A stretch of 64,000 nucleotides of DNA from Maribacter arcticus (GTDB lineage: Bacteria > Bacteroidota > Bacteroidia > Flavobacteriales > Flavobacteriaceae). The translations under genes were made by a program, and so were the position numbers. The stretch spans positions 186,001 through 250,000 of the forward strand of contig NZ_FUYL01000002.1 in assembly GCF_900167935.1 (NCBI RefSeq). Direction: 5' to 3'. The stretch's first letter is position 1. Each line of letters opens with the position of its first letter. The notes beneath the pieces are model-generated. The model did no database searches and was not told where the DNA came from. It worked only from the letters and a program-made list of their open reading frames with translations. Shown here in pieces: positions 54,819 through 64,000 of this stretch.

Positions 54819-57776
54819 TTGAAAACATTAGCCACTGATTTTCTCTTAAAAGAGTCACCCAATGCAATTGCTATCGTGGACACTAAGTTAAACTTTATTA
54901 ACTACTCAAACCAATGGCAAAGCGATTTTACGCCAAACAAAACAGATATAATTGGTAAGCCTCTTTTTGATGGCATTTCAGAAATGCCAATTTTATTCAA
55001 TTATGCAATTAAAGTAGGATTAACTGGTAAAGAAAACATAAATGCTGGGCAAAAATTCATTTTACCAAGCGGAAAAGTACAATGGCTTAAATGGAAGATT
55101 TCTCCAATTAGAAACGATATTAATATTTTAGAAGGATTAGTTATTTACTTAGAAGATATTACCGCTGATAAAAGAGAGCTCGAACTACTACAAAAGGCGG
55201 AAACTGTAGCAAGAATAGGAGGTTGGGAGGTTGACCTTCAAAAAAATTCGCTTTATTGGACCAAAACAACCAAGGACATACACGAGGTACCAGAAGATTT
55301 TGTGACGGATTTAGCACAGGGTATCAATTTCTATAAAGAAGGATTTGACAGAGATAAAATAGCCAAATTGGTCAGTGCTGCAATTGAAAAAGGTAAACCT
55401 TGGGACACCGAATTAATCATTATTACACAAAAAGGCAATGAAGTATGGGTAAGGGCAATAGGTGAGCCTGAGATGCTTGACAATAAGGTGATTCGAATTA
55501 TTGGTACTTTTCAAGATATTGATGAAAGAAAAAAAATTGAACTAGCACATGAGGAAATTACGGAACGCTTAAAAATTGCTACACAAACTGCCCATATTGG
55601 TATTTGGGAGTATCATATTCAGAAAAATGAATTGGTTTGGGATGATAAAATGTATAATGTCTTTGGAGTGGCCAAAGATCAATTTTCAGGAGTATTTGAA
55701 GCCTGGGAATCTACCCTTCATCCAGAGGATAAAGAGAGGGCCTTAGCAGCAACCAGCAAAGCTATCTCTGGAGAAAAAGATTTTGATGAGGAGTTTAGGA
55801 TAATATTACAGGATGGAAGTGTAAAACATATTAAAGGTATTTCAAAAACCATTAAAGATATTAATGGCACAGCTATTAAAATGACCGGTGCCAACTGGGA
55901 TGTTACAGAACTTAAAAGAACACAGTTAAAATTAGAGAGAAACGAAGAATCCTTTATTAAGACCTTTGATAATTCCATAATTGGCATGGCAATGGTAGGC
56001 TTTGATGGAAAATTCATCAAGGTCAATAAAAGTCTTGCCAATAGTTTAGGGTATAGTGCCAATGAATTAACAGAATTAACATTTCAAGACCTTACCCACC
56101 CAGAAGATTTAGCAAAAAACGTAAGTCTATTGCAAAAGGTCTTAGATCATGAACTTGAGAGCTACCAAATAGAGAAAAGGTATGTTCACAAAAATGGAAG
56201 TCTTGTCTATGTGGTACTTACTACAACAATGGTAAAAGATTTGGATGGCAACCCTTCTTATATGATTTCTCAGGTTCAGGATATCACGTCTAAAAAGGAA
56301 GCTGAACATAATTTTAAGGAAACGTCTGAACGACTCAATGTGGCTACCCGTGTTGCCAATATAGGCATATGGGAATATCACATTGCAAATAACACGGTTC
56401 AATGTAATGATAACATGTATGACATATATGGCATTCCCAAAGGCACCGCTGACCTTCTTGATGAATGGTTGAAGCATATTCTCCCGGAAGACGTAGAAAA
56501 AGTCACAACTGCTTTGCAAAGAACCATCAATAATCATGCTCCTCTCAACATAAAGTTCAGAGGCATTAAACCCAATGGGAAAATAATTCATTTAGTAGTG
56601 ATTGGGGAAGCCCAAAGTGGAAATGATGGGAAAATAGAAAAAATAATTGGCTCCAATTTAGATATTACTGCTTTAAGAAGTACAGAGCTCCAATTAGAAC
56701 GAAATATAGAGTCTTTTACAGAAACATTTGAAAATGCGGCCATAGGAATGGCACTAGTGAGTCCCCAACATGATTGGTTAAAAGTCAATAAAAGTTTATC
56801 AGATATTCTAGGATATTCAGAAGAAGATCTACTACAATCAAAAACCTTGGATATAACCCACCCAGATGATTTGGATAAAAGTACGAAAGTTCATGATAAA
56901 GCCTATAAGGGGGAAAAAGACACCTATCAATTAGAGAAAAGATATTTCCATAAAGATGGTCATTTGGTGCACGTACTTTTAGGGGTAACGGTCGTAAAAG
57001 ACTTAGACGGAAATCCTATCCATTCCATAGCACAAATTCTAGATATAACAGATAGAATCGAATCTGAAAAAAAATTACAATCCTTGGTTGAAGTCACAAA
57101 AAGTCAAAATGATAGTCTAATGAACTTTGCCCATATCGTTTCTCATAATCTACGCTCACATTCAACTAACATGACAATGCTTACGAAATTTTTGTCACAA
57201 GAAGAAGATAAAAAAGAACTGAAAAATATTAATCGAATGATTTCTGATGCTGCTGAAAGTCTATCTGAAACCATAACGCATTTAAATGATGTTGTTCAAG
57301 TTAAAACAGGAGCTCTAGAGAATCTTCAAAGTACTAGCGTATTAAATACAATTGAGCATATTAAAAAGAGTATAGGCGGTTTATTAGAAGAGCATGACGC
57401 CATTATAAAAATTGATATTGAAAAATCACATTTTGTAAATGCTGTACCTGCATATTTAGAAAGTATATTTTTAAATATTCTAACCAATGCATTAAAATAT
57501 AGTTCCCTAGACCGTACCCCTGTTATTGAAATAAAATCGAAGCTTAAAAAAGAAACTGTGCTAATTACATTTAAAGATAATGGACAAGGAATCGATTTAA
57601 AGCGGCATGGCAATAAAATATTTGGTATGTACAAAACATTCCATAAACATAAAGACGCGAAAGGCATCGGTTTATTCATCACAAAAAATCAAATAGAAGC
57701 TATGAGTGGAAGCATTAAAATAGAAAGTGTCATAGATGAAGGTACCACCATTTTTATAGAATTAAAACAAAGCTAA
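54819..57776 (+). CDS. Multi-PAS sensor histidine kinase
   Basis: The 985-residue soluble kinase starts with a TTG (no ATG precedes the first PAS domain). PAS domains lie at about 10-115 and 125-240, followed by a duplicated two-PAS module: A (248-368), B (369-487), A' (503-620), B' (624-741). The DHp helix has the H-box FAHIVSHNLRSHSTNMTML (His776), and the HATPase_c domain (about 870-985) shows the N-box ILTNALKYS, G1 DNGQGIDLK and G2 KGIGLFITKN. It has no membrane helix, so it senses a cytoplasmic signal. A single-domain response regulator starts 13 bases later. Confidence 0.95.
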   Translation: MKTLATDFLLKESPNAIAIVDTKLNFINYSNQWQSDFTPNKTDIIGKPLFDGISEMPILFNYAIKVGLTGKENINAGQKFILPSGKVQWLKWKISPIRNDINILEGLVIYLEDITADKRELELLQKAETVARIGGWEVDLQKNSLYWTKTTKDIHEVPEDFVTDLAQGINFYKEGFDRDKIAKLVSAAIEKGKPWDTELIIITQKGNEVWVRAIGEPEMLDNKVIRIIGTFQDIDERKKIELAHEEITERLKIATQTAHIGIWEYHIQKNELVWDDKMYNVFGVAKDQFSGVFEAWESTLHPEDKERALAATSKAISGEKDFDEEFRIILQDGSVKHIKGISKTIKDINGTAIKMTGANWDVTELKRTQLKLERNEESFIKTFDNSIIGMAMVGFDGKFIKVNKSLANSLGYSANELTELTFQDLTHPEDLAKNVSLLQKVLDHELESYQIEKRYVHKNGSLVYVVLTTTMVKDLDGNPSYMISQVQDITSKKEAEHNFKETSERLNVATRVANIGIWEYHIANNTVQCNDNMYDIYGIPKGTADLLDEWLKHILPEDVEKVTTALQRTINNHAPLNIKFRGIKPNGKIIHLVVIGEAQSGNDGKIEKIIGSNLDITALRSTELQLERNIESFTETFENAAIGMALVSPQHDWLKVNKSLSDILGYSEEDLLQSKTLDITHPDDLDKSTKVHDKAYKGEKDTYQLEKRYFHKDGHLVHVLLGVTVVKDLDGNPIHSIAQILDITDRIESEKKLQSLVEVTKSQNDSLMNFAHIVSHNLRSHSTNMTMLTKFLSQEEDKKELKNINRMISDAAESLSETITHLNDVVQVKTGALENLQSTSVLNTIEHIKKSIGGLLEEHDAIIKIDIEKSHFVNAVPAYLESIFLNILTNALKYSSLDRTPVIEIKSKLKKETVLITFKDNGQGIDLKRHGNKIFGMYKTFHKHKDAKGIGLFITKNQIEAMSGSIKIESVIDEGTTIFIELKQS

Positions 57777-57789
57777 AGCCAAATATATT

Positions 57790-58197
57790 ATGAAGAAGAA
57801 TGTACAAGTATGTTGTATTATAGATGATGACCCCATTTTTATATACGGTACCAAAAGAATCATGAAAGAAGTTGATTTTGCAGAAAATATAATCGTTTAC
57901 AATAACGGCCAAGAGGCAGTAGACGGCCTTAAAGAAATCATTAATGAGGGAGGCCTTCTGCCAGAAGTGATATTTTTAGATTTAAATATGCCTATTATGA
58001 ACGGTTGGGAATTTTTAGATGAGTATGAAAATTGCCGTCACGAGATATCAAAAAAGACCATTATATATATTATTAGTTCTTCAGTAGACCCTAGAGATTT
58101 AGAGCGTGTTAAACACTATAATCAAGTTGACACGTATATTTTAAAACCCATTACACCGGATGATTTAGGCAAAATCATAAGCGCAACAACAGTATAA
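57790..58197 (+). CDS. Single-domain response regulator
   Basis: The 135-residue receiver has the acidic pocket VCCIIDDDPIF, phospho-acceptor Asp in VIFLDLNMPIMNGWEF, switch Ser in YIISSSV and Lys in ILKPIT. No output domain. It starts 13 bases after the multi-PAS kinase and is the obvious partner. It is closely similar to the product at 58399. Confidence 0.93.
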   Translation: MKKNVQVCCIIDDDPIFIYGTKRIMKEVDFAENIIVYNNGQEAVDGLKEIINEGGLLPEVIFLDLNMPIMNGWEFLDEYENCRHEISKKTIIYIISSSVDPRDLERVKHYNQVDTYILKPITPDDLGKIISATTV

Positions 58198-58398
58198 TCT
58201 ATACTGACATCTTGGTATTTTAGTTTTAATAAATATAAGCCTAACACCCTATAAATGTTATACTTATATTGTTTTTTGTTAATAAAAGTTATTGTAAATT
58301 ATTCTCTTAATTACTTCAACACCTAACTAATTACTTATCTTCGCCCTTTATTATTTAGACTTTTTACAAACCTAAATCACAGAAAGATTTAATTAAGA
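58198..58398 (+). other. 201-base gap between two response regulators
   Basis: AT-rich, no open frame. Near-consensus -7 element TATCTTCG at 58336-58343 (one mismatch), about 55 bases before the next start codon. No hairpin terminator seen. Confidence 0.4.
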
Positions 58399-58806
58399 AT
58401 GAGCAAATTTCATAGCTGTTGCATCATTGATGATGACGAGTTTTTTTCTATAAGTAGTAAAAGAGTTTTAAAACATTTTGACTTTTCTGATAACATCTTG
58501 TATTACACAGGTGGTCAAGAAGCACTTGATGGTTTAATTGGTCTATTAGTAGAAAATATACCTTTACCCACTATAATTTTTCTTGATTTAAATATGCCTC
58601 GAAGAGATGGGTGGTCATTTCTAGAAGAGTTTCAAGACCTACCTGAAGATAAAATAGCACATGTTCAAATTTATATCACCAGTTCTTTCATAAGCCCAGA
58701 ACTTATGAAAAAGGCAAAAAACTACAGCATGGTAAAAGATTATATCGTTAAACCCTTAACCGATAGTGCTGTTAAAAAAATAATTGATTCACAAGAATTA
58801 GAGTGA
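58399..58806 (+). CDS. Single-domain response regulator (second)
   Basis: The 135-residue receiver has HSCCIIDDDEFF at the start, phospho-acceptor Asp in IIFLDLNMPRRDGWSF, switch Ser in IYITSSF and Lys in IVKPLT. It resembles its neighbour at 57790 in length and motifs, so a duplication is likely. A 201-base gap separates them, with a TATCTTCG (58336-58343) one mismatch from the -7 consensus, so it may have its own promoter and respond separately to the same kinase. Confidence 0.92.
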   Translation: MSKFHSCCIIDDDEFFSISSKRVLKHFDFSDNILYYTGGQEALDGLIGLLVENIPLPTIIFLDLNMPRRDGWSFLEEFQDLPEDKIAHVQIYITSSFISPELMKKAKNYSMVKDYIVKPLTDSAVKKIIDSQELE

Positions 58807-58808
58807 TG

Positions 58809-60179
58809 CTATCTTACGCCAGGCGTAAAATCTAGAGGAGCATTTTGTGGTAGATTTACAGTACCATTATTACCCGTGTCATTATATATAATCCATTCAC
58901 TTTCTGTGAAAACCGTGTTTCCTGATATGACCTCTATTTTTCTTTCTGCCTTGCCATCTTCAAATTCATGGTTTGTATTACTACCATCTTCCCCAATAAC
59001 ACCAAATATATCTATTACAGTACCGAAAGGGTCTATTAAAGCAATATTATCATCGCCATTAGAATCTGCTGGTGAATTTGTACCCACAGTAATTGTTGGT
59101 AAAAACCCATAGACCGTTTCAAATTCTAAAGCATTTGGCGAAATTACTATAAGTCCGTTGGCGTTTATACTATAGTCAGATAAGTCTATAGATGAGCTCA
59201 CTTCTGTGCTTGAATTCGTATATCGCACCAAGGTCCAGCCATTTAATGATAAAGCTTCATTTGAAGAATTATATAATTCTAAAAATCGAGCTCCGGCATT
59301 ATTATTTGGGTCAGCAATTTCAGAAATAAAAATAGAGTTAGATGTAAACTCATCTATTAACTCTTCACAGCGTACTTTATTAAAATCTAAATCATCTACC
59401 GTTCTAATAATTAATTGAAACTCATTTTTATCCATCGTTAAAACACCAGTAGCGGTTCCCATTTTATCAGGGATAATTTGCGCTTGAAAATCAGAATAGC
59501 CACTATTTAAAAGTATTAACTCATTATCATCACAATCAATTAAAGTTCTTTGTGTCTCTTCTTTTTCAACTGCAAAAGATTTACCTAATTCATCTTCTTT
59601 AAACTCAACATTAGCTATACGCACCAACGTATTAACCATACTTTCGTTTAACTCTAAAATAGAAACCGATTTTGGCAATATGTTTTCAACTGGGTCACAG
59701 GACACTAAAATATGATTAAAAATTACGCTGTTAGGTAACCTACCTACACTACGATTACCAAAAGAGGTAAATACACCTCCTATCTTAAATAAACCGTTCG
59801 ATTGACCTAAATACAGACCTTTTAATTTTATAAAAACTGTCTGGCCAATATCAAAAAATAAATGGGAATCTCTTAATTCTAATTCTATTTGTAAGCCCTT
59901 TGTAGGATTACTCGATGCGTCTTGAAAATGAAGTATATTGAAAAAATTACCTGACTTATCAGAAGAAACAACATACCCTTTAACAACCCAATCTTCTTGA
60001 ATCTGAACAGTCTCGCCAGCGTACAAATTTTTTAGTTCTGATATACTTAAGATACTGAAATCTTCATCAGAACAAACTAATTCAGGTTCATCAAAGTCTC
60101 TATTTTTTACACATGCGCTAAACACTAGCATAATGCTTAAAACATAAATTTTAAATAAAAAATTGTTTTTAAAAATCAT
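58809..60179 (-). CDS. DUF5689 / lamin-tail-domain surface lipoprotein
   Basis: The 456-residue protein (ATG at 60179) has a lipoprotein signal ending FSAC. Residues about 40-270 form a DUF5689 region with OB-like strands (IQEDWVVKGYVVSSDKSGNFFNILHF, then GQTVFIKLKGLYLGQSNGLFKIGG), similar to the YhcR-type OB folds of extracellular nucleases. Residues about 280-405 form a lamin-tail domain (SIFISEIADPNNNAGARFLELYNSS, LNGWTLVRYTN), also frequently found in secreted nucleases. No catalytic nuclease domain is visible, so it is more likely a binding protein. It follows the TonB receptor gene by 16 bases. Confidence 0.85.
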   Translation of the reverse strand: MIFKNNFLFKIYVLSIMLVFSACVKNRDFDEPELVCSDEDFSILSISELKNLYAGETVQIQEDWVVKGYVVSSDKSGNFFNILHFQDASSNPTKGLQIELELRDSHLFFDIGQTVFIKLKGLYLGQSNGLFKIGGVFTSFGNRSVGRLPNSVIFNHILVSCDPVENILPKSVSILELNESMVNTLVRIANVEFKEDELGKSFAVEKEETQRTLIDCDDNELILLNSGYSDFQAQIIPDKMGTATGVLTMDKNEFQLIIRTVDDLDFNKVRCEELIDEFTSNSIFISEIADPNNNAGARFLELYNSSNEALSLNGWTLVRYTNSSTEVSSSIDLSDYSINANGLIVISPNALEFETVYGFLPTITVGTNSPADSNGDDNIALIDPFGTVIDIFGVIGEDGSNTNHEFEDGKAERKIEVISGNTVFTESEWIIYNDTGNNGTVNLPQNAPLDFTPGVR

Positions 60180-60195
60180 CTTAATCACATCATAT

Positions 60196-62937
60196 TTAGA
60201 AACTAAACGCCATATTTAAAAAATAGGTTCTACCGAAACCATACCAATACTTTGGTGCAAAAGATGGGTTACCGCTAAAATTATCTTGCTTCAATTGTCC
60301 ATAATTACCATTTCTGCTTTGTTCATACCCACCAGTTCTAAAGGCTGTATCAAAGACATTGTTGACACTTGCAAAGACACTAAAATATTTCCCCTTCTTT
60401 AACCAAGACTTACCTCCAACTAGATTTAATAAATAGAAATTATCTAACCGATTTTGTTTTAAAAGCTTTTGAACATTTTCATCAGTAGCATCTGGAAATC
60501 TTTGTCCCGTTTCTGGATCTATTAAAAAACTTTTAGTTCTGGTTATTGTAGAAATGTTTGCATAATTATTGGCTAAGTAATTCGCGGTCATGCTTACCCA
60601 CCAATATTTTGGATCCCTATATTCAATACCTACAGCAATTGCTTTTTGCGGCCCTTGAGCCAATTTATATCCTTTAATAGCAGATTGACCTAAAAACTTT
60701 GAACCAGAAACATCAATTAAATCTTCGGTCGCCCCTGCAGTATCAAAGTTAATTGTTACGAAAGGGTCGCTAGCATATAGATACTTTGCAACCGAAGTAA
60801 CCAATGACAATTTTACCGCGCTTGACAGCTGATATTCAAAGCCTAGTTCAGTACCTAAATGCAATTTATCTAAATCGGTCAATACCTCTTGCACAAAATC
60901 TGAACCTATACCAGAATCAACGAAAAAGAAATTTACATCAGTGCCATCTTGAAAGCGGGTATAAAAACCTGTAAGCCTTCCTGTAAGTTTTGGCATTCTC
61001 AAAAAATAATTAGCATCTACACTTGTAATCTTTTCACTTTGCAGATTAGGCACAATAGCATTATTTTCCCTCGGATTTATAAAAACATTTTGAAGTACCG
61101 GAGCCCTATTAATATATGCTGCATTAGCAGTAACCCAGTGTCTTCCCGTTATATTATATGTGATTCCTGATTTAAATGACCAATTCGAAAATCGTATTCG
61201 TTCACTTTCACCGTATGAATTTTCTAAAAAGCGTTCATTCATAAACAATCCATTTCTTTGATAATTTACATAGCTGTATTTACCAGAAATAAATGCATTT
61301 ACTTTATTATAGTTTAAATTTAGTTGGGCATACATGTCTGTCATATTCCCTTCAAAATCATATTTGTAATTAAAAATATCGCCTTTCTTTTTATTGACAT
61401 CTCCATCGATATCGTTAAGCGTTTCAGAAAATGTATCGATATCTCGATGAAATTCAGCGCCTATCAAATCGTCGATTAGAGCATAATTTTTAGACATTAA
61501 ATGTTTATAGGTTAGTCCAAAATCAACCCTTAAATGACTATTAATATCTATGTTAGTATTTACCCTAGCCGCAAGCTGATTATCTTTTGTCGTATCATCA
61601 TACAAAACATATGCGGCTTTACCTTCTTGGCCTAAACTGGTATTAGCTTTAAATATATTGCTCCAATTCAACTGTGCGTTTTGAATAAAACCTTCTTCAG
61701 CCAAAACCGCACTTTCAAAATTTGCCCCAATTGGACTATTCAAATAAAAACTCGGTAAATATCTATAATAAGTAGGGTCAGGATTTGGAGCATTAAAATA
61801 ACCCAACCTACTTCTTTTATAAATTCCGGTTTGGTAAGCCAAACCTGCATTTATTACTAATCCGTTAGATTCATGATTATAGTTCAATAAAAATAATGGT
61901 TCACGTATATTTCGCTCTCTAGAATTTCGAATCTTACCATTCTGAAAACCCCAATATGGATTGTATCTATTTCCTTGAATTTGAAATACTTCTTCGGTAA
62001 TTGCAGAAGAACGACCTCTTCTGTTCGAAGCTACAATAGCAGTTGCAGATAGTGTATTTTGCTCATTTAGTAGATATTCAAAAGAGCCATATACAGAATA
62101 TGAATCATATAAAGTGCCAGCGATATAACCTTCCTTAGCCCATCTTCTAGAAGCCGAAAGCATATAAGCATACTTTTCCTTTTTAACTCCAGAATTATAA
62201 GTTGCCATAAGCCTACCACTATATGTTCTGTTCGATAAAGATGATGATAGCCGAGTGCCAGGTCGTAACCCTGATGGTCGTAAATCTATATTTGTATTTC
62301 CTAGTATACCACCAAAAGTAAAATCGGAAGCACTTAACCCATTAGCGTATTGTTGATTTCTGATAACATCATTTAACCCGCCCCAGTTATTCCATTGTGG
62401 TCTACCGTCGTACATTTTGTTCATGGGTATACCATTTAGCTGCACCTCACCATATTGTGAATCATATCCTCTTACCCTAAAAAATGCTTGTCCGAAATCA
62501 AAAGCAGCCCTATTAAGAAAAATGTCTTTAGTAGACTGAAGCAACGCTAATGCATTAGAGTTAACTTCATCATCAAGCAGCTCATCATCAGTAATGTTTA
62601 CCAGATTAATAATTTTCTCAAAAGTTATATCACGCTCTAAACGTATTGTTCCTAAGTCTAAATCAACACCATTAAGAAAAATAGGTATTCGCTTAATAAC
62701 ATAATCTGGTGCAGTAATATTTAAAATAAATTGTCCTTTCTTCGAAGTAGTAATGCTAAACTCTCCCATATCATTACTGCCAATTGAAAAGACGCTCCCC
62801 TCAACCATTACTTCTGCATTCGTAATTTTCTGCCTATTTGTTGTCTCTTCGACAACTCCTATAATAGTAGAAGTGGCCTGAGATTGTAGGGTGCAAATTT
62901 TAAACACTACTAATAAAAACAGTAAATGTTTTATCAT
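60196..62937 (-). CDS. TonB-dependent receptor of the DUF5689/nuclease locus
   Basis: The 913-residue receptor has a signal peptide (about 1-20), a carboxypeptidase-D-regulatory-like domain (about 22-95: IIGVVEETTNRQKITNAEVMVEG), a plug (about 110-230) with the motif FFRVRGYDSQYGEVQLNGIPM and WNNWGGLNDVIRNQ, and a barrel ending YFLNMAFSF. It forms an operon with the DUF5689/lamin-tail lipoprotein, in the position where SusC and SusD-like proteins pair in nutrient-uptake loci. Its likely cargo, from that context and the divergent nuclease, is a nucleic acid breakdown product. Confidence 0.93.
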   Translation of the reverse strand: MIKHLLFLLVVFKICTLQSQATSTIIGVVEETTNRQKITNAEVMVEGSVFSIGSNDMGEFSITTSKKGQFILNITAPDYVIKRIPIFLNGVDLDLGTIRLERDITFEKIINLVNITDDELLDDEVNSNALALLQSTKDIFLNRAAFDFGQAFFRVRGYDSQYGEVQLNGIPMNKMYDGRPQWNNWGGLNDVIRNQQYANGLSASDFTFGGILGNTNIDLRPSGLRPGTRLSSSLSNRTYSGRLMATYNSGVKKEKYAYMLSASRRWAKEGYIAGTLYDSYSVYGSFEYLLNEQNTLSATAIVASNRRGRSSAITEEVFQIQGNRYNPYWGFQNGKIRNSRERNIREPLFLLNYNHESNGLVINAGLAYQTGIYKRSRLGYFNAPNPDPTYYRYLPSFYLNSPIGANFESAVLAEEGFIQNAQLNWSNIFKANTSLGQEGKAAYVLYDDTTKDNQLAARVNTNIDINSHLRVDFGLTYKHLMSKNYALIDDLIGAEFHRDIDTFSETLNDIDGDVNKKKGDIFNYKYDFEGNMTDMYAQLNLNYNKVNAFISGKYSYVNYQRNGLFMNERFLENSYGESERIRFSNWSFKSGITYNITGRHWVTANAAYINRAPVLQNVFINPRENNAIVPNLQSEKITSVDANYFLRMPKLTGRLTGFYTRFQDGTDVNFFFVDSGIGSDFVQEVLTDLDKLHLGTELGFEYQLSSAVKLSLVTSVAKYLYASDPFVTINFDTAGATEDLIDVSGSKFLGQSAIKGYKLAQGPQKAIAVGIEYRDPKYWWVSMTANYLANNYANISTITRTKSFLIDPETGQRFPDATDENVQKLLKQNRLDNFYLLNLVGGKSWLKKGKYFSVFASVNNVFDTAFRTGGYEQSRNGNYGQLKQDNFSGNPSFAPKYWYGFGRTYFLNMAFSF

Positions 62938-63033
62938 TTAAAAACTCAACGTATTGTTACTAAGCCATTAAGATACATTTTTAAGAAATAATTAACGTGA
63001 AAATTCCGTATACTAGCTAATAATTAAGACACA

Positions 63034-64000
63034 ATGCCCTCGATGAAGCTATATCTATTCTATTTTTTACTTTTTTCTCAAATGGGTTTAATTGCACAAG
63101 AGGCAGCCAGTTATCAAATCAGAACCGTTGCTTTTTACAATTTGGAAAATCTTTTTGACACGAAAAATGACACATTAATTTTTGACGATGACCGGACTCC
63201 AACAGGCAAAGATCACTGGACGGAAGAACGCTATATAGAAAAAATTGCTCAGATGTCTAAAGTGATTTCTGAAATTGGTTCTTCAGAAAACAAAACTGCT
63301 CCTGATATTATTGGTGTTTGTGAAGTTGAAAACTTAAGTGTCTTACAAGATTTGGTACACCATAGTAATCTATTACAGACCAATTATGGTATTATACATT
63401 TCGATTCGCCAGATGAACGTGGTATTGATGTAGCGCTGCTATATAAAAAGGATGCATTTATTCCCGTAAATTTTAATAGTCATCGGTTATTACTTTTCGA
63501 TTTAGATGGAAAACGCAACTACACTAGAGATCAACTTATCGTTGAAGGATTATTGGACAACGAAAAAATATACTTTTTAGTAAATCATTGGCCATCTAGA
63601 AGTGGAGGTGAGGCCAGAAGCAGACCTTATAGGTTAGAGGCAGCTAAACTTAACAAACGCATTATAGACTCTGTAAGAAGGCAAGATATCTATGCCAAGA
63701 TCATTAGCATGGGTGATTTTAATGATGACCCTGTTGACCCTAGTTTTAAAAAAATATTAAATGTACAGAAGAGCTATAAAAATCTAGATTCTCTTAGCCT
63801 CTATGGCCCTATGGAAAAGCTTTATAAAAAAGGAAAAGGTTCTTTGGCATATAGAGATAAATGGAATCTTTTTGACCAACTATATATGACCTCTACACTA
63901 TTAGATAAAGAAAAACATACGTACAGTTATTGGAAAGCAGGTATTTTTACACCCAGCTATTTAATGGACCCAAAAGGAAAATATAAAGGCTATCCCTTAC
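63034..64000 (+). CDS. Secreted endonuclease/exonuclease/phosphatase-family protein, 3' end missing
   Basis: The open frame starts at ATG 63034 (or ATG 63043) and runs off the right edge after about 322 codons. A signal peptide (ending LIAQ) is followed by the DNase I-like fold: FYNLENLFDTKND, GVCEVENLSVL (metal Glu), VNHWPSRSGGEARSRP (catalytic His and Arg-rich region) and SMGDFNDDPVDPSF (Asp-Asn). The last catalytic His lies beyond the edge. It is probably an extracellular DNase or phosphodiesterase. The divergent TonB receptor starts 96 bases away and may share a control region. Confidence 0.88.
   Translation, partial: MPSMKLYLFYFLLFSQMGLIAQEAASYQIRTVAFYNLENLFDTKNDTLIFDDDRTPTGKDHWTEERYIEKIAQMSKVISEIGSSENKTAPDIIGVCEVENLSVLQDLVHHSNLLQTNYGIIHFDSPDERGIDVALLYKKDAFIPVNFNSHRLLLFDLDGKRNYTRDQLIVEGLLDNEKIYFLVNHWPSRSGGEARSRPYRLEAAKLNKRIIDSVRRQDIYAKIISMGDFNDDPVDPSFKKILNVQKSYKNLDSLSLYGPMEKLYKKGKGSLAYRDKWNLFDQLYMTSTLLDKEKHTYSYWKAGIFTPSYLMDPKGKYKGYPL

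Follow-up and report, generated by a model that had tools for sequence, protein, structure and literature searches.

The question raised by this locus is what a TonB-dependent receptor, a DUF5689 lipoprotein and a DNase I-fold enzyme do together at the cell surface: feed the cell on nucleic acid, as an earlier note had proposed, or bring DNA into it. The window, that is, the whole stretch of DNA that was analysed, comprises 64,000 nucleotides (G000:C12:186001-250000), and the features that matter here are the following.

58809 to 60188, minus strand: lipoprotein; open reading frame with a signal peptide, lipid-bearing Cys26 followed by VKNRDFDEPE, DUF5689 at residues 47-266 and a lamin-tail domain (LTD) at residues 283-397.
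60196 to 62937, minus strand: TonB-dependent outer-membrane receptor of 913 aa; open reading frame, Pfam.
62938 to 63033, no strand: divergent intergenic region of 96 bp between the receptor and enzyme starts.
63034 to 64000, plus strand: DNase I-fold endonuclease/exonuclease/phosphatase (EEP; PF19580), predicted to be exported; open reading frame, Pfam; cut by the window edge.

The full enzyme gene, read from a longer locus (L003), extends from 63034 to 64086 in window numbering and encodes 350 aa. Open reading frames and Pfam agree with the proposed layout of one operon, with 7 bases between the receptor and the lipoprotein on the minus strand, facing head to head an enzyme gene on the plus strand that starts 96 bases from the receptor start. 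The lipoprotein more likely starts at the ATG at 60179 than at the GTG at 60188. Its DUF5689 was detected by Pfam with an E value of 3.4e-68 and its LTD with 1.4e-13 (51.6 bits, cut-off 34.3), and the enzyme matched PF19580 (Exo_endo_phos_3) with 1.1e-101 for the truncated frame and 2.6e-116 for the full 350-aa gene. The beta-barrel was the sole receptor domain to pass its Pfam cut-off (38.1 bits, cut-off 27), the plug (22.1 bits, cut-off 23.9) and CarbopepD_reg_2 (26.7 bits, cut-off 32.2) falling below theirs.

Genes for a PAS-rich histidine kinase and two single-domain response regulators (54819-58806) adjoin the lipoprotein gene. They were rejected as partners of the three genes, hereafter the trio, as relatives were found beside it in only four of 40 same-family loci, L064-L067, which are close relatives. 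Also present on the longer locus (L003 10728-17078) are genes for a 152-aa protein (p152), a second TonB receptor (TBDR2), a glucose-6-phosphate isomerase (PGI) and an M23 peptidase (M23); in many same-family loci these genes, or some of them, occupy the same position next to the trio.

That the three genes belong together is borne out by their conservation within and outside the family. A receptor match (E <= 1e-20) was found in 57 of a sample of 60 same-family genomes; two of these, G249 and G134, were weak paralogues, which left 55 genomes, the window's own included. Loci were fetched from 40 of the other 54 receptor genomes, these being the best-scoring ones and no random draw. The lipoprotein gene was downstream of the receptor on the same strand in all 40 loci, overlapping it or at most 221 bases away in 39 and 850 bases away in L086, and the enzyme gene was divergent and at most 185 bases away in 37. 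The exceptions were L070, with the enzyme 1.2 kb off, L079, where the contig ends inside the receptor, and L086, where no enzyme was found nearby and whose genome (G268) carries one elsewhere. Adjacency was counted in those loci, 52 out of 60, whose receptor scored above 150 bits; in L065, L074, L092 and L095 overlapping frames gave a false sign, and the lipoprotein is downstream by its coordinates.

In a sample of 247 genomes of the phylum, DUF5689 was detected in 114, of which 26 belong to the same family (27 were drawn); the match was strong, above 110 bits, in 13 of the others and weak in 75. Counting both arrangements, 11 of the 13 strong loci outside the family contain the trio, nine times divergent and twice with all three genes on one strand (L115 and L116); the other two comprised the pair (L108) and a lipoprotein beside a different TonB-type barrel (L107). 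The trio crosses order and class borders, co-directionally in L115 and L116, and neither p152, TBDR2, PGI nor M23 was seen beside it there. It was absent from all seven weak-DUF5689 loci examined, picked from the 75 weak genomes. The trio is a real, conserved unit.

Several variations were seen around these genes. Two receptor-lipoprotein pairs lie in tandem in L073 (5947-14694), and some lipoproteins, in the genome of L073 and in others, contain several copies of DUF5689. A second, diverged EEP gene stands on the lipoprotein side in 11 of the 40 same-family loci (L071, L076, L077, L080, L084, L087, L089, L091, L094, L095 and L098), scoring 246 to 273 bits, or 234 bits in L077. Among viral contigs, 10 stretches matched a pattern and none held a relative of the lipoprotein.

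The lipoprotein was compared with its relatives in an alignment of 53 homologues, from which a fragment (L111) was omitted. The lipid Cys is invariant in all 53, although a lipobox pattern overlooked 10 of 54 lipoproteins. It is often followed by an acidic stretch of the type C-V-x-D-D-D-[FY], which we take to resemble the surface-export signals of Bacteroidota. DUF5689 was found in all 53 homologues, DUF5017 in 25, LTD in 12 and an OB family (PF01336) in two, with a best E value of 0.0016. With an LTD in only 12 of 53, the lamin tail is a variable end and not the core of the protein. An AlphaFold2 model of the mature window lipoprotein from its single sequence had a mean pLDDT of 31.8 and no usable fold. 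The earlier note's description of a lipoprotein combining DUF5689 with a lamin tail thus holds by sequence, whereas the qualification of DUF5689 as OB-like was not proven by the two PF01336 matches and this model. Sequence searches of the PDB returned no matches for the receptor and the enzyme, and profiles built from lipoproteins and from enzymes returned none either; a match of the lipoprotein to a ribosomal protein (E 0.076) was taken as chance. As was also proposed, the lipoprotein, downstream of the receptor, occupies the place of SusD. The order of TonB receptor and surface lipoprotein is that of SusCD-type importers, but the window lipoprotein contains only DUF5689 and LTD, and no SusD domain was found by Pfam.

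The proposed link to nucleic acid is real in kind, since five of the seven weak-DUF5689 loci encode DUF5689 fused to an EEP or PLD domain. DUF5689-EEP proteins with a type IX tail were found in L119 (4375-7614), L120 (5854-7644) and L121 (5875-7746), the tail of L120 scoring 26.8 bits, under the cut-off of 27, and DUF5689-PLDc proteins with such a tail in L122 (5929-8121) and L123 (5932-8295). In L117 and L118, DUF5689 stands without such a fusion. These fusions provide independent evidence for an action of DUF5689 on nucleic acid or some other phosphodiester. The EEP fusions share DUF5689 and EEP with the trio, and in L119 the LTD too; however, they are single chains with a secretion tail and without a trio receptor within about 6 kb, whereas the window has separate genes. 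PF18942 also scored above its cut-off in the controls B. subtilis and Bacteroides ihuae, so this domain alone is no mark of a trio locus.

Six DNase I-type residues of the enzyme (E99, H185, D228, N230, D336 and H337 in window numbering), which we take to be catalytic, are invariant in the 51 trio enzymes compared. The N-terminus of the window enzyme is hydrophobic and resembles a signal peptide, and its chain ends about 20 residues past the start of the SDHFPV motif; across the 51 enzymes the end lies within about 25 residues of SDHxP. No type IX sorting domain was found in the full window enzyme with NCBIfam or Pfam, and no tail was seen in any of the 51. The lipobox pattern was present in one of them (L090), a count that is a lower bound because the pattern misses 10 of 54 lipoproteins. 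Since it has an export signal but is too short at its C-terminus to accommodate a type IX tail, the enzyme is probably periplasmic. It had been called secreted, for which "exported" is the better word. The matches to the ExeM/NucH family were under the cut-offs (56.3 bits against 1300, and 25.3 against 300). ExeM/NucH of Shewanella is described with the same types of modules, namely an LTD, an oligonucleotide-binding region and an EEP nuclease (PMC6085458), in one chain, whereas in the window they are split over the lipoprotein and the exported enzyme, with the TonB receptor gene between them.

The closest experimental evidence comes from Riemerella anatipestifer, in which markerless deletion of RA0C_RS04915, encoding an outer-membrane protein with a carboxypeptidase-regulatory domain, or of RA0C_RS04920, encoding a DUF5689 protein, is reported to abolish natural transformation (PMC8459023). 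The receptor-and-channel model of this pair is the authors' own speculation; in the relevant sections of that paper, RS04910 served solely as a control for transcripts, and the conversion of double- to single-stranded DNA was left to an "unidentified" protein. The same source reports R. anatipestifer to be without pilus homologues, and the nuclease gene is not among its listed transposon hits, from 3,000 mutants, a number that is non-saturating for a genome. Mutants in tonBA and tonBB also transform less, the former with no iron-uptake defect, effects that their authors read as nutrient supply (PMC8383284).

We located an R. anatipestifer record, from strain CCUG25054 and not ATCC 11845, with a comEC primer taken from PMC8383284. 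The order there is recA, dinB, sdhB, sdhA, sdhC, comEC, two genes, enzyme, receptor and lipoprotein, names that were assigned by eye except for comEC. The enzyme gene should be RS04910, as the gene order fits the published tags in steps of five. It lies on the minus strand and the receptor and lipoprotein genes on the plus strand, the same order as in the window, with the nuclease gene divergent at the equal place and 31 bases between receptor and lipoprotein on one strand (L126; 7 in the window). The proteins are 40% (enzyme), 32% (receptor) and 29% (lipoprotein) identical to those of the window. The window receptor and that of R. anatipestifer (G304:C22:115601-118345) are reciprocal best hits with wide margins (464.5 against 80 bits and 469.5 against 69.9 bits), and each of the two genomes has one DUF5689 match. 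On the reciprocal receptor hit, the single DUF5689 match and the gene order, the window pair can be regarded as orthologous to RS04915/RS04920.

The two loci also differ. The lipoprotein ends in an LTD in the window but in a choice-of-anchor J domain in R. anatipestifer, and the distance between comEC and the trio is about 2 kb in R. anatipestifer, whereas the two are on different contigs in the window's genome. The NCBIfam family NF052645 (M949_1556) gives 590.8 bits for the R. anatipestifer protein and 182.5 bits, below the cut-off of 475, for the window lipoprotein. An M949_1556 mutant is named among live attenuated vaccine candidates, and the study cited there has a role in antigenicity and pathogenicity in its title (PMC12566107). 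F. johnsoniae is said to have the homologues, but it could not be transformed in the tests reported (PMC8459023; PMC7965970). Among the matches listed in searches of the literature on TonB and transformation or on DNA as a nutrient, there was no study of the trio nuclease gene.

The distribution of the receptor was compared with that of ComEC. Among 199 same-family genomes at least 95% complete, the receptor (absent when no match reached E <= 1e-60) was missing from 14, ComEC from six and both from five; some absences could be false, since at most four receptor candidates were scored per genome, although every candidate of G275, G134 and G290 was scored in the 60-genome survey. ComEC was absent in 5 of the 14 receptor-less genomes against 1 of the 185 receptor-bearing ones (Fisher p 4.7e-6), and, above 2.5 Mb (sizes read by hand), in 2 of 5 against 1 of 175 (p 0.0018), p values that are only a guide because the genomes are related and reduced genomes weigh heavily. 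In the 60-genome sample, five genomes had neither a receptor orthologue nor DUF5689; ComEC was absent in three of these and in two of the 55 receptor genomes (G292 and G299, both less than 90% complete; p 0.0028, to be read with the same caution). DprA was absent in two of the five and partial in a third, and absent also in G299.

A ComEC match was found in 184 of the 185 receptor-bearing genomes, the split copy of the window's genome (G000) being counted and G369 being the exception, and ComEC is present in 9 of the 14 receptor-less genomes, with frames of at least 674 aa in G134, G424 and G430. In two genomes with no receptor match, G290 and G329, the ComEC frames are 544 and 459 aa long, against about 680 in most genomes listed. 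A trio-type enzyme was found in all 14 receptor-bearing genomes chosen (10 of them at most 2.5 Mb) against two of the 14 receptor-less ones, with a dividing line of 343 bits that was set after the scores were known and is valid within the family only. The two keepers are G134 and G430; G309 is doubtful (296 bits), and G424 holds a 50-residue scrap with two stops. Absence of the receptor is associated with that of ComEC and with that of the enzyme, much of the joint absence lying in reduced genomes.

The window's genome has DprA, but its comEC is broken into two fragments, both of them open frames, with about 29 kb between them. At one end of the 29-kb element that splits it (L127 2250 to L128 11718; G000:C5, about 35.75-65.02 kb) lies a gene for a large serine recombinase; the element also carries a second gene of resolvase type, a helicase, and an MvaI/BcnI-type restriction enzyme adjoining a cytosine methylase. 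A 17-base inverted repeat was read by eye at both of its ends, where a script that looked for direct repeats found none longer than 7 bases. In the congener G318, comEC is a single uninterrupted frame of 675 aa. Because of this split, the strain is probably not transformable now, unless the element leaves. An intact trio together with a split comEC is compatible either with feeding or with a recent insertion.

Taking together the orthology, the conserved gene order, the conserved residues and the joint absence, we consider it probable that the trio forms the outer-membrane stage of DNA import for natural transformation in Bacteroidota. Double-stranded DNA would be captured by the surface lipoprotein and passed across the outer membrane by the TonB receptor, which would draw on TonB energy; the exported DNase I-fold enzyme, whose likely place is the periplasm, would trim or digest the incoming DNA, so that one strand could enter via ComEC and the remainder would be degraded. 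DUF5689 would be the DNA-binding part; the pair presumably has the same function in the window's genome as in R. anatipestifer, and the place and role of the nuclease are likewise presumed. The low identity of the window lipoprotein to its R. anatipestifer counterpart and its ending in another domain count against this reading, as do the split comEC of the window's genome, the failure to transform F. johnsoniae, the nutrient-supply reading of the tonB effects, the genomes with only one of receptor and ComEC, and the enzyme in G134 and G430 despite their lack of the receptor. More tentatively, the importer may be independent of a pilus, and the periplasmic DNase I-fold enzyme could be the protein that the R. 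anatipestifer model left without a name, making the single strand for ComEC; we regard this as possible, with the balance somewhat against it.

The best of the alternatives is the one nearest to the earlier note, a nutrient locus in which the lipoprotein would bind extracellular nucleic acid, the enzyme would degrade it and the receptor would import the oligonucleotides for phosphate, nitrogen and carbon. Receptor-lipoprotein pairs of such layout usually import nutrients, and an intact trio persists in a genome whose comEC is split. The enzyme and the lipoprotein together recall the three modules of ExeM, through sub-cut-off matches (PMC6085458), and Lutibacter, a flavobacterial genus, is reported to have degraded DNA in marine sediment (PMC8289736). 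However, R. anatipestifer requires the orthologous pair for transformation (PMC8459023), the trio is jointly absent with ComEC, and the enzymes, with no type IX tail in 51 and a lipobox in one by an imperfect pattern, are unlike the tailed DUF5689 nuclease fusions.

The intergenic region does not favour a nutrient locus either. The pho box sought at 62938-63033 was not found: none of the four pho-box-like matches in the window, against a chance mean of 5.6, falls there, the consensus used being the enteric one, which need not apply to Bacteroidota. The promoter-like motif TAnnTTTG was present in 22 of 47 intergenic regions toward the enzyme (shuffle mean 5.75) and in 23 of 47 toward the receptor (6.28), the shuffles being crude two-base-block ones and the gene starts set by rule of thumb; it is absent from the window's own intergenic region. 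Nutritional scavenging as the main job of the trio is therefore unlikely, given the essential R. anatipestifer pair and the lack of a pho-box-like site, while scavenging as a second or lineage-specific use is possible.

A dual use, in which DNA is imported whole, eaten and, with a working ComEC, recombined, feeding being the selected function in lineages that have no competence, would account for the receptor without ComEC in G369, for ComEC in receptor-less genomes and for the window's trio beside a split comEC, but the ComEC match in nearly all receptor-bearing genomes makes it improbable. Finally, as the EEP superfamily is broad, p152, TBDR2, PGI and M23 are likewise syntenic within the family, and the enzyme is present in G134 and G430 although the receptor is not, the enzyme could act on another phosphodiester (phospholipid, nucleotide or phosphoinositide) in a neighbourhood of old synteny and not of shared function, but this is very improbable for a trio that crosses order and class borders and stands co-directional in L115 and L116 where those neighbours were unseen, whose enzyme is missing from 11 to 12 of the 14 receptor-less genomes and matches, weakly and below the cut-off, the ExeM/NucH DNase family.

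As far as our literature searches show, the conserved nuclease as a third part of the proposed DNA importer, the LTD variant of the lipoprotein and the insertion in comEC are new. DNA uptake by Gram-negative bacteria is described as driven primarily by type IV pili in a 2025 review (PMC12236230), in whose main text no occurrence of Riemerella, Flavobacter-, Bacteroid- or TonB was found. The R. anatipestifer pair can be linked to a trio that includes a conserved nuclease and is found widely among Flavobacteriaceae. This link offers a testable candidate for the missing steps at the outer membrane and in strand processing, and it points to DNA uptake as a possibly common ability in a phylum with few demonstrated cases.
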